Assembly (NCBI GenBank): GCA_031276105.1
Contig: JAISNS010000329.1
Location: 1-11,239, forward strand
From: Dysgonamonadaceae bacterium
GTDB taxonomy: Bacteria; Bacteroidota; Bacteroidia; Bacteroidales; Azobacteroidaceae
Length of the DNA stretch: 11,239 nucleotides
Direction of reading: 5' to 3'
Both the position numbers and the translations under genes were made by a program. Each line of letters opens with the position of its first letter. Position 1 is the stretch's first letter. This document shows, in pieces, positions 1 to 10,978 of the stretch. The notes beneath the pieces were generated by a model. It did not search any database. It was given only the letters and a program-made list of their open reading frames with translations, and was not told the origin of the DNA.

Positions 1-1416
1 GATTTAACTGTAAAAGAAAACTTTACCGGCGCAATGGTTTACCACACCGGCGAGCACAATATTGCTGCCGGTATCTATGTTTGGAACGGAACGAACTGGG
101 CGCCGGTCGAAGAAAACTGTACACCGTTGACTCCGGCTCATTTGTTGCTGACAGGGCCTCCGTTTGCCAAGCAGGACGATGACCTTACTTTTTCGGTTTC
201 GACCAACACGAGCGCCATTTGTTCCGGCGACGAAACGTACAAGTGGTACACGAGTGGCCTCAATAATGACGTCTATGCGGTTGTTGCAGGAGAGACTGCT
301 TCGTCTTTCACAACTTCTTTCGGTTCTGTCGGTACTTACAAGGTAATGGTTGAGGTAACCAACCGTTATTCCGGTCTTCCTGCTACGAAAGTAAAGGCGG
401 TTGAAATAACCGCCGACGGCAGTTTTCCTGCTGCCAGACTCAACAGCAACTACGGGATTGTCGGCGAAACCTGTTTAGATGTAAAGAAAGACAAACCTGC
501 AGATCAAGACCAGAATGTTTACGATGACCGTAAAGACGGTTTTCCGGGTGGCAATTATGAAAAGACTTATAAATTTGTTCATGGCGACGCTTACTCTGAT
601 TTGAATTTGTTTTGTGACGATCCGGCAAAAATAGTAGAAGCGATAACTGTTTATCCTCCTGCGACCGCTCCGACCGGCGGACCCGCTGTTGACGGTTATT
701 ATGAAAAAGAATTTAAGATTAAATTCAAGTCGAACATAAAAGAGTTGGTTCCTCCTGACGGCGATTCTTTGACGGTTAAGCTGGTTGCGAGTTATACCGA
801 CTCAGGAAATAATCCCAAACTGGCTTACTTAGAAATCCGTGTGGAGGACGGGACTTGCGTATGTCCTGCGAAAAAAAGCGCTACGGAATGGTTGAATTTT
901 ATGTGTCATAATTTGGGCGGTTTGGATATTCTTTCTTCTTCTCAACTGGTTACTCGCGCTCATCACGGCGACTGGTATCGCTGGGGAGCAACGAATGTTT
1001 CCATGGAAAATACGCCGGCTAATGATGGTAGAAATGATGGTACTTGGGATGATTCCGATTATCAGACTGCCAACGGCGATTGGGCTAATGACGGTACACC
1101 TCCCTGTCCTGCCGGCTGGCGATTGCCGAGGCTGGACGAGTGGAATGATCTTATGAATTCTGAAGGCAGAACGTTTTTCTCGCCGGGCGGTGTATTTGCC
1201 AGCTTCACACGAATAGGCGCTTCCCTTTATTTCCCTGCCGCCGGTTGGCGGTACTACGACACTGGTGCGTTGGACAGCCGTGGCGGTATCGGCTACTATT
1301 GGGGTAGTACTACTTCTTTTCCTACCAACGGTTATAATATACTGCTCGGCTCTCAAGCTTATAAAATAACTTCTTACACTCGGCAGTTGGGGCTATCGGT
1401 GCGTTGCGTGCAGTAG
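1..1416 (+). CDS. FISUMP-domain surface protein, 5' end outside window
   Basis: The frame is open from the first base, so this is the C-terminal part of a longer, probably secreted protein. An ATG at 34 is internal: the residues before it run smoothly into GIYVWNGTNW, a segment typical of these surface proteins. Numbering from that ATG, residues about 45-125 look like an Ig/PKD-type beta domain (KWYTSG, GTYKVMVEV), and about 130-275 are unassigned beta-rich sequence. Residues about 285-460 form the FISUMP domain (family known as Fib_succ_major), with WLNFMCHNLGG, the YRWG segment, CPAGWRLPRLDEW, GYYWGSTT and the end LSVRCVQ. The function is unknown; the family is extracellular or surface-exposed and has a C-type-lectin-like appearance. 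The last ~56 codons (1246-1413) resemble a DGR variable region. A hairpin terminator follows. The family call is secure; the role is inferred. Confidence 0.85.
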   Translation, partial: DLTVKENFTGAMVYHTGEHNIAAGIYVWNGTNWAPVEENCTPLTPAHLLLTGPPFAKQDDDLTFSVSTNTSAICSGDETYKWYTSGLNNDVYAVVAGETASSFTTSFGSVGTYKVMVEVTNRYSGLPATKVKAVEITADGSFPAARLNSNYGIVGETCLDVKKDKPADQDQNVYDDRKDGFPGGNYEKTYKFVHGDAYSDLNLFCDDPAKIVEAITVYPPATAPTGGPAVDGYYEKEFKIKFKSNIKELVPPDGDSLTVKLVASYTDSGNNPKLAYLEIRVEDGTCVCPAKKSATEWLNFMCHNLGGLDILSSSQLVTRAHHGDWYRWGATNVSMENTPANDGRNDGTWDDSDYQTANGDWANDGTPPCPAGWRLPRLDEWNDLMNSEGRTFFSPGGVFASFTRIGASLYFPAAGWRYYDTGALDSRGGIGYYWGSTTSFPTNGYNILLGSQAYKITSYTRQLGLSVRCVQ

Positions 1417-9391: not shown

Positions 9392-9499
9392 ATGTCAACT
9401 TCCGTAAATGACAATTTATTATGTATTATTAGCTTCCAACGCTTGGAAGTTGATGGAATTATGCGTACACACACACACAACTGCGTGCGAGCGAAATAA
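9392..9499 (+). CDS. Possible 35-aa leader or small peptide
   Basis: An ATG about 25 nt after the predicted transcription start opens a 35-codon frame ending at TAA 9497-9499. The peptide includes MRTHTHNC, encoded by an AC dinucleotide run (about 9467-9479). It has no signal peptide and no recognised family. Its only support is its placement between a good promoter and a terminator; it may be chance inside a non-coding RNA. Confidence 0.2.
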   Translation: MSTSVNDNLLCIISFQRLEVDGIMRTHTHNCVRAK

Positions 9500-9522
9500 A
9501 CTATATTTCAGAAAAAAACAAT

Positions 9523-9560
9523 ACTTGTCGGTCTCCCAAAGAGATTCGGCAGGTTTTTTT
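9523..9560 (+). terminator. Intrinsic terminator
   Basis: ACTTGTCGGTCTC (9523-9535) pairs, with G-U pairs and a bulge, with GAGATTCGGCAGGT (9541-9554) across the loop CCAAA. Seven T follow (9554-9560), and a run of A precedes the stem (9512-9518), so it could act in both directions. It ends the candidate small transcript and would also stop read-through from the NfeD gene. Confidence 0.65.
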
Positions 9561-9646
9561 GTGTCTGTTGCGCAATGGAATGCGGATGACACGGATGAAG
9601 CTGATAATCATGGATTTTACCTCTTTCCTCCGTAAGCTAAAGCATA

Positions 9647-9801
9647 CGGTTAATAGAGTGTCATCCCTGCGGGGCTTCACGGGCAATAGGCGGCTACGAC
9701 ACTCAGAGTCGCGAAGCGGCGCTCAAGAGACAGTTCACAGCCGGCGGGAAAGCTGGTCGTTTGTATCAGCAAGCCCCACAGGGGCGACACTTTATTAACC
9801 G
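9647..9801. mobile_element. 155-bp element with 31-bp imperfect inverted ends (MITE- or REP-like)
   Basis: The left arm 9647-9677 (starts CGGTTAATAGAGTGTC, ends GCGGGGCTT) is the reverse complement of the right arm 9771-9801 (starts AAGCCCC, ends TTTATTAACCG) at 27 of 31 positions. The three or four differences fall in the middle of the arms. The 93-bp interior has no credible gene and contains small hairpins, such as around CGACACTCAGAGTCG. A further hairpin, CCGCGCGTT-TT-AACGTGCGG (9799-9818), abuts the right end. There is no clear target-site duplication. It is either a non-autonomous transposable element or a paired REP/BIME-like palindromic repeat. Confidence 0.6.
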
Positions 9802-9818
9802 CGCGTTTTAACGTGCGG
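9799..9818. repeat. GC-rich hairpin abutting the inverted-repeat element
   Basis: CCGCGCGTT (9799-9807) pairs with AACGTGCGG (9810-9818), nine bp with one G-U pair and a TT loop. It overlaps the right tip of the 155-bp element by three bases and includes the in-frame stop (9809-9811) that closes the frame of the following FISUMP gene on its 5' side. Confidence 0.55.
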
Positions 9819-9862
9819 AAATTTCGTGCGGCGGCGGTACTCGGCGCGAGAGTGCACAACCT

Positions 9863-10978
9863 GTGACGCTTCTTGGCGCACTTGCTGCTCCCGGCGCGAT
9901 AACTTTTTCAAACACTAAGATATGCGGCGTCGGTACTACATTTACCGCAGGTATAACTCCTGTTGCGGGCGCTACGAGTTATGTTTGGACGTTGCCTAAC
10001 GGACTGACAGGTTCTTCTACCGTCACTTCGATTACGATTGGTTGGACAACCGAAGGGGTTTATTCTGACGGTTCGATATCCGTACAGGCGGTGAACTCGT
10101 GCGGCGATGTCGGCGCTTCGAGCAGTAGTGGGCAAACTGTGAAGGTTGGCGCCATTCCTGATGTTCCTGTCGGCGGTACCGTTTCAAATAGCGGCGCCAC
10201 GTTTACGTTTAGCGCTACTCCTGCGCCTGGTTGTACGATTGACTGGTACGATTCGGCTACCGGTGGTGCAAAAGTAGCTACCGGCGAGTTGTCCTATTCT
10301 ACAACTTTAAGCGCTAGAACGACTTATTATGCCGAGTCTCGTAATACTACTACCGATTGCGTATCTTCTTCTCGTTTGGCTGTTGAATCGGTTGGTATTT
10401 ATTCTGTTTCCAATTGTGATTTAACTCATTCTTATGGTGGTAATATTATTACTAATTCGAAGAATGTTCGTTTCACTAACGGAGATACATATACACGTAA
10501 TGGCATAACCCTTTCTGCATCTGTGAAGATAGTTGAGCGGAACCCCAAGTCAAGTCTTGCTTCCTCCGCTAATACTACTGTTGATTATCGCGATCATTCT
10601 ACCGCTAATTATGGTTCCTTCTTTACGTGGTGTATGGTTGCCACCCATGCTGATATTTTGTGTCCTTCTCCGTGGCGGGTTCCGACACTGACAGACTTTC
10701 AGAACTATTCCGGTATTAGCAGTGGTTCTACCACCTCAATATACGGCAGACCTGTCGCTACTGCTTCCGAGGCTATAGACGGTTGGCTGCTTGGTGGCCG
10801 CGCCTACAGTGGTAACGACCTGAGCTCTGTTGGTTCGAGCGGCTACTATTGGTCGTCCACTGAGAGTAGCTCAAGTAGCGGCTACGACGCGGCCGTTACC
10901 AGCAGCAACTTCAACCCGTCGAACAGCACCACTCGCTACGTCGGGTTCTTGCTGCGGTGCGTCAAGACTGCTCCGTAA
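9863..10978 (+). CDS. FISUMP-type surface protein, 5' truncated or fragment
   Basis: The frame is open from 9812; the nominal start is GTG at 9863. Residues about 12-97 form a PKD-like domain (GITPVAGATSYVWTLPNG, SVQAVNSCG). Residues 103-175 form an Ig-like domain (TFTFSATPAPGCTIDWYDSATGG, TTYYAESRNTTTDCVSS). Residues about 180-367 form a FISUMP-type domain with CPSPWRVPTLTDF, GYYWSSTES and FLLRCV. Homologous proteins of this kind carry a signal peptide. None is found here, and the coding similarity seems to begin mid-protein (AQPVTLLGALAAPGAITF), right after repeat DNA, so the 5' part is probably lost. The last ~58 codons (10790-10963) use NNC codons heavily, unlike the T-ending codons upstream, and look like a DGR variable region. 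Expression of this copy is doubtful; the domain identity is good. Confidence 0.72.
   Translation: MTLLGALAAPGAITFSNTKICGVGTTFTAGITPVAGATSYVWTLPNGLTGSSTVTSITIGWTTEGVYSDGSISVQAVNSCGDVGASSSSGQTVKVGAIPDVPVGGTVSNSGATFTFSATPAPGCTIDWYDSATGGAKVATGELSYSTTLSARTTYYAESRNTTTDCVSSSRLAVESVGIYSVSNCDLTHSYGGNIITNSKNVRFTNGDTYTRNGITLSASVKIVERNPKSSLASSANTTVDYRDHSTANYGSFFTWCMVATHADILCPSPWRVPTLTDFQNYSGISSGSTTSIYGRPVATASEAIDGWLLGGRAYSGNDLSSVGSSGYYWSSTESSSSSGYDAAVTSSNFNPSNSTTRYVGFLLRCVKTAP

Follow-up and report, generated by a model that had tools for sequence, protein, structure and literature searches.

A probable orphan variable region of the diversity-generating retroelement type, one of many FISUMP gene tails of its kind in a draft Dysgonamonadaceae genome

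The 3' end of a FISUMP gene in a draft genome of a Dysgonamonadaceae bacterium is very probably (about 90% by our estimate) a variable region that owes its sequence to a diversity-generating retroelement (DGR). Judged from its sequence, this tail, at positions 10781-10963 of the window (the whole 11,239-nucleotide stretch of DNA that was analysed), appears to be an orphan DGR-type variable region, one of many targets, whose writer is missing from the assembly or has been lost. A preliminary description of the window had proposed a DGR origin from codon endings, and two lines of evidence now uphold that proposal: paralogous tails are hypervariable at the first two codon bases while the third is largely fixed, in the tail only, and DGRs of the same genus have homologous FISUMP tails as variable regions, in which template and variable copies differ only at adenines.

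The window is contig C244 of a 2.58-Mb draft genome in 370 contigs, with a completeness of 86.25% and a contamination of 1.07%. Among relatives of its DnaA with an organism name attached, the nearest belong to Dysgonamonadaceae or Bacteroidales MAGs and reach 70% at most. Two FISUMP open reading frames (ORFs) lie in the window (Table 1). The second, which carries the tail under study, also matches NCBIfam TIGR02145 under that model's cut-off; the nearest other database protein is 62% identical, and searches of PDB sequences returned nothing that covers the FISUMP domain. Comparison of N-termini indicates that this ORF is 5'-truncated, without the signal peptide and N-terminal part present in homologues, and the DNA at 9480-9880 has 63 matches in the genome (self-match counted). 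The first FISUMP gene seems to be truncated by the contig start, and a gene for a PD-(D/E)XK nuclease family transposase (PF12784; 1613-2533) sits between it and kdsA.

Table 1. Positions of the features discussed, in the window unless a cassette region is named.
Feature	Position	Strand	Remarks
First FISUMP ORF	34..1416	+	PF09603 24.3 bits, under cut-off
Dispersed repeat DNA	9480..9823		abuts truncated 5' end of second FISUMP ORF
Second FISUMP ORF	9863..10978	+	371 aa, GTG start; PKD_6, Ig_7 and Fib_succ_major (Pfam)
Fib_succ_major domain including tail	10463..10966	+	PF09603, residues 201-368, 43.6 bits, cut-off 33.9
Probable DGR-type variable region, tail of second FISUMP protein	10781..10963	+	codon-position signature; extent is that of the inferred-template match
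Small cassette ORF	L094 4527-4985; L220 1638-2078; L205 2180-2677; L213 2237-2749		

The tail reads GGRAYSGND...FLLRCV over the last 57 codons preceding KTAP (10793-10963), and 32 of these end in C, compared with 66 of the ORF's 310 upstream codons (Fisher p = 3.3e-7). The preliminary description had the 32 right and the total one too low, at 56. Its account of the stretch covering the Ig-like domain end and linker, with about five C-ending codons and T dominant, was accurate (codons 161-212, 10343-10498: 5/52 end in C and 37/52 in T). The abruptness it described needs a nuance, as about 100 codons of the FISUMP domain between linker and tail are intermediate (C 23/100, T 48/100; C in 12 of the last 50), so that the switch falls within the FISUMP domain, near 10781. 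From there the signature runs to 10963 at the 3' end of the gene, 12 bases short of the stop codon; the extent first proposed, 10790-10963, coincides almost exactly with the match to a template inferred from the genome's own tails.

The genome contains 34 Fib_succ_major matches, and its FISUMP tails form two families: family A, with 18 tails like the window's ('GWLLGG..YWSST..SLRCVK'), and family B, with 14 tails of the type 'YLPAAG..YWSS..SVRCVAAE', which includes the tail of the first FISUMP gene in the window (L046, about 1228-1413). We aligned 16 of the 18 family A tails by codon, omitting L015, a near-duplicate at a contig end, and L017, whose middle could not be aligned. The 28 hypervariable columns average 1.59, 1.50 and 0.72 bits of entropy at the first, second and third codon base. 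Base 3 varies least in 27 of these 28 columns and in 0 of 19 conserved ones. Ordinary coding drift leaves the opposite pattern. A fixed third base beside hypervariable first and second bases is what copying from an adenine-mutated template predicts.

A local preference for C-ending codons, for reasons of translation or composition, would produce the sharp rise of such codons in the tail. We kept the amino acids of the 16 aligned tails and redrew synonymous codons 500 times. Codon usage from the upstream regions predicted a third-base entropy of 1.55 +/- 0.04 bits (lowest draw 1.42), and even the pooled usage of the tail columns themselves predicted 1.35 +/- 0.05 bits (lowest 1.20); the observed 0.725 bits over the 28 hypervariable columns lies under both. 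Moreover, while the preferred third base is mostly C, some hypervariable columns hold a constant T or G there, a pattern that calls for a common template and that a C preference would not give. The pooled-usage null rejects codon bias as a full account, and we give this explanation next to no credence.

The inverted pattern is confined to the tail. Pairing 14 genes in all 91 ways gives a tail identity at base 3 of 0.758, compared with 0.541 for bases 1+2, while upstream the corresponding values are 0.608 and 0.653; base 3 is the more conserved in 91/91 pairs in the tail and in 12/91 upstream, the pairs being non-independent. The 14 genes are those of an earlier 12-gene comparison with L010 and L014 added; that comparison, which had omitted L014 by choice and L009, L010 and L013 as too short, put base 3 ahead in 66/66 tail pairs and 10/66 upstream. 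Over all 16 aligned family A tails, base 3 is ahead in 120 of 120 pairs. Diversifying selection combined with gene conversion among paralogous tails would need no retroelement, and with many paralogous copies on shared scaffolds in one genome, conversion is possible and may add to the pattern. Selection on amino acids, however, leaves third bases free, conversion transfers whole blocks, and neither yields a base 3 that is least variable in nearly every hypervariable codon. As related genomes also possess a retroelement that makes just such a pattern, we regard selection with conversion as a very unlikely explanation.

Third-base identity between family A tails ranges from 0.54 to 0.93. These differences exclude a single fresh copying from one template and call for related template versions, or for writing at different times. 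In several gene pairs third-base identity reaches 0.88-0.93 in the tail against 0.54-0.73 upstream, and third bases that are more alike in the tail than upstream point to writing well after the genes diverged. The signature of family B is weak, with entropies of 1.67, 1.54 and 1.32 bits at the three bases and base 3 least variable in 17 of 32 columns.

To find retroelements in related genomes, we searched 58 genomes with the RVT_1 profile and obtained 38 matches, in 17 of 33 genomes of the same genus. Regions were fetched around 21 of the 38, from 12 of the 17 genomes with a match. The motif I-G-x-x-x-S-Q...DD, typical of DGR reverse transcriptases, is present in 17 of the 21 regions. Nine regions, from seven genomes, hold repeat pairs of 97-195 bases with 10-24 mismatches, every one at an A of one copy and on the strand of the reverse transcriptase, and seven of these nine pairs encode the W-S-S..R-C tail motif. 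A control scan that tolerated G or C in place of A found no pair in any of the 21 regions, and one on the opposite base gave a run in L213 alone (118 bases, 8 mismatches), within its own pair. The other 12 regions have no long A-only pair; L212 has two short ones, of 58 and 56 bases.

The cassette in L220 looks intact; its FISUMP target is accompanied by a small ORF, an Avd gene (PHROG 'Avd protein of DGR'), a template and a 393-aa reverse transcriptase. Together with L205, L213, L221 and L094, from the same genus, it shares with the window's genome the same kind of FISUMP tail, and these cassettes add an Asn-rich template and a reverse transcriptase; an Avd gene is seen in L220, L205, L213 and L094. 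The Avd of L094 matches Pfam bAvd above and NCBIfam DivGenRetAVD below the cut-off, and the reverse transcriptase there looks broken by frameshifts. A small ORF of 146-170 aa lies between the target and the Avd or reverse transcriptase gene in four cassettes (Table 1); the L094 version matches Pfam MutS domain I, and those of L220 and L205 have no Pfam match.

We then aligned five templates found by their proximity to a reverse transcriptase (L205, L213, L220, L221 and L204) to the tails of the window's own genome. At the positions where these templates encode Asn, family A columns average 2.47-2.78 bits of entropy, compared with 1.14-1.22 at all other positions (p 4.7e-8 to 6.1e-6), and family B columns 2.68-2.86 bits, compared with 1.30-1.39 (p 2.0e-5 to 1.5e-4). 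Template Asn codons thus coincide with hypervariable columns in both families. The best templates from the same genus or from rumen genomes nonetheless mismatch family A tails at 15-39% of non-A bases, and none of these templates can therefore be the writer.

The template inferred from the genome's own tails gave further candidates. Among 57 relatives it matches G023 and G026, and among 392 members of the order, with two candidates scored per genome, it matches G385, G395 and G408. All five matched stretches look template-like, with 14-22 Asn (translated, flanks included), and three of the five carry a DGR-type reverse transcriptase on the fetched stretch. The inferred peptide matches four short database ORFs, the best of which, P0080, is an N-rich form of the family A tail behind an unrelated leader, and all 19 of its Asn positions fall in family A columns of at least 2.35 bits. 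This evidence is partly circular, since the inferred query had Asn at those positions and A-rich queries favour A-rich matches; the Asn-position test with templates found by reverse transcriptase proximity is free of that circularity. Candidatus Saccharibacteria records contain two further annotated short ORFs, P0081 and P0082, that are N-rich, resemble templates and bear the same tail motif.

In the window's own, 86%-complete assembly we found targets only. An RVT_1 profile search that did match in control genomes returned nothing there, nor did a protein search with an intact reverse transcriptase from the genus (run with no positive control). Avd was found neither with an Avd from the genus (again with no positive control) nor with Pfam bAvd. 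An N-rich template was likewise absent, and all 16 matches to the inferred template are tails of genes already listed. The best of them, the C182 tail at 79%, was considered as a template and rejected, having 3 Asn in 61 residues; it lies within what looks like a frameshifted gene remnant. Own-genome tails hold 1-8 Asn each. Among viral contigs there was one unrelated pattern match, and relatives of P0080 were absent. With the searches for reverse transcriptase, template and Avd all negative, we do not file the locus as a DGR cassette. The template and reverse transcriptase had been expected elsewhere; they do lie outside the window, and the rest of the available assembly did not yield them either.

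These negative results bear on whether the tails are still being written. They might be relics, once written by a DGR whose template and reverse transcriptase have since been lost, in genes now drifting as ordinary paralogues. This account shares its origin with our preferred reading and differs from it solely on present activity. The missing template, reverse transcriptase and Avd fit it, as do the spread of third-base identities among the tails, the truncated and frameshifted copies present among the FISUMP genes of this genome, and the comparable orphan targets described for isolates of Treponema denticola (PMC4891356, in the portion available). Against it, absence from an assembly that is 86% complete and in 370 contigs is weak evidence, and the gene pairs whose tails agree far better at third bases than their upstream parts speak for later writing. 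We consider such a relic state a serious possibility, at slightly less than even odds.

Under our preferred reading, that the tails were written by a DGR, a reverse transcriptase would misincorporate opposite adenines while copying a template RNA, and the resulting cDNA would replace the 3' end of a FISUMP gene. AAC and AAT codons would become NNC and NNT, with the remaining template bases retained. The family A tails, on at least 16 dispersed gene copies, would descend from a single lineage of related templates, and the 14 family B tails look like older or differently templated targets. We infer that the same kind of reverse transcriptase as in the related genomes wrote these tails, acting in trans on many genes. 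Its cassette with the template is probably encoded in sequence that the draft assembly lacks, or on an element that was not binned with it, unless it has since disappeared. By analogy with the family, such writing may serve to diversify the binding face of adhesin-like proteins on the cell surface. A more specific scheme is speculative and, we think, rather unlikely: a single DGR, acting in trans from a mobile or unbinned element, would diversify FISUMP proteins across the genome, 16 or more of them and perhaps over 30, while truncated copies such as the window's would form an archive of variants that recombination could return to full-length genes.

FISUMP targets, multi-target DGRs and orphan targets are each already known. 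Fib_succ_major proteins are described as DGR targets in two reports (PMC4159848, PMC8934634, in the portions available), and Table 2 of the former, on human-microbiome DGRs, includes nine proteins with a C-terminal Fib_succ_major domain. The variable region of the window likewise ends a protein with such a domain; unlike those systems, for which target, template and reverse transcriptase are reported (PMC4159848), this genome shows targets only. In T. denticola, the available text describes orphan targets with A-patterned variable regions in isolates without an identified reverse transcriptase or template, and up to seven variable regions per genome at about 77% identity (PMC4891356). Our genome resembles those isolates in having target genes with neither component found. 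It differs in where templates are known, which is in further isolates of T. denticola itself but only in other species for our tails, and in holding 16-18 tails of one type against up to seven variable regions (PMC4891356). Use of one template for several genes is also documented (PMC6642488, PMC10907252): the passages available report multiple variable regions in 271 of 948 DGRs, and Thiohalocapsa PB-PSB1 has 15 target genes, of which some seem to be written in trans (PMC10907252). Such genomes hold reverse transcriptase loci (PMC6642488, PMC10907252), whereas in our assembly we found none. More broadly, the part of PMC8144416 available connects annotated variable regions with C-type lectin folds and finds an enrichment of DGRs in the FCB group, and an excerpt of a review has DGRs diversifying Bacteroides tip pilins (PMC12632263). 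Our literature search found no paper pairing a DGR with Dysgonomonas.

What stands out is the number of similar DGR-type targets in one draft genome, an unusually large repertoire in what is a gut bacterium. The inverted codon-position pattern makes orphan DGR targets recognisable from paralogues alone, free of any template, and the cassettes point to a Bacteroidales genus with FISUMP-directed DGRs in at least seven genomes. If the writer is found, this genome would be a good case for how one template reaches many genes.

The surroundings of dnaA were also compared. In one congener (G008) a complete DGR cassette with a thioredoxin-like gene (L205 86-5803) adjoins dnaA, placed much as the first FISUMP gene is in the window. 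An ancestral DGR beside dnaA was considered and rejected; around dnaA, a DGR reverse transcriptase or Avd occurs in none of 20 other congeners, seven of which have kdsA near dnaA, as in the window.

A pattern scan of public genomes returned at least 106 stretches, a few of them chance matches, and those listed are mostly from rumen or gut Bacteroidales. Three of these stretches (L129, L168 and L170) carry two tails and a DGR-type reverse transcriptase, with strict A-only pairs in L129 and L168 and none in L170. The pattern GG-NNN-CTATTGGTCGTCCAC (L097-L202) recurs in many MAGs of Bacteroidales from the rumen and hindgut, where it falls mostly at FISUMP-like tails that are hypervariable.
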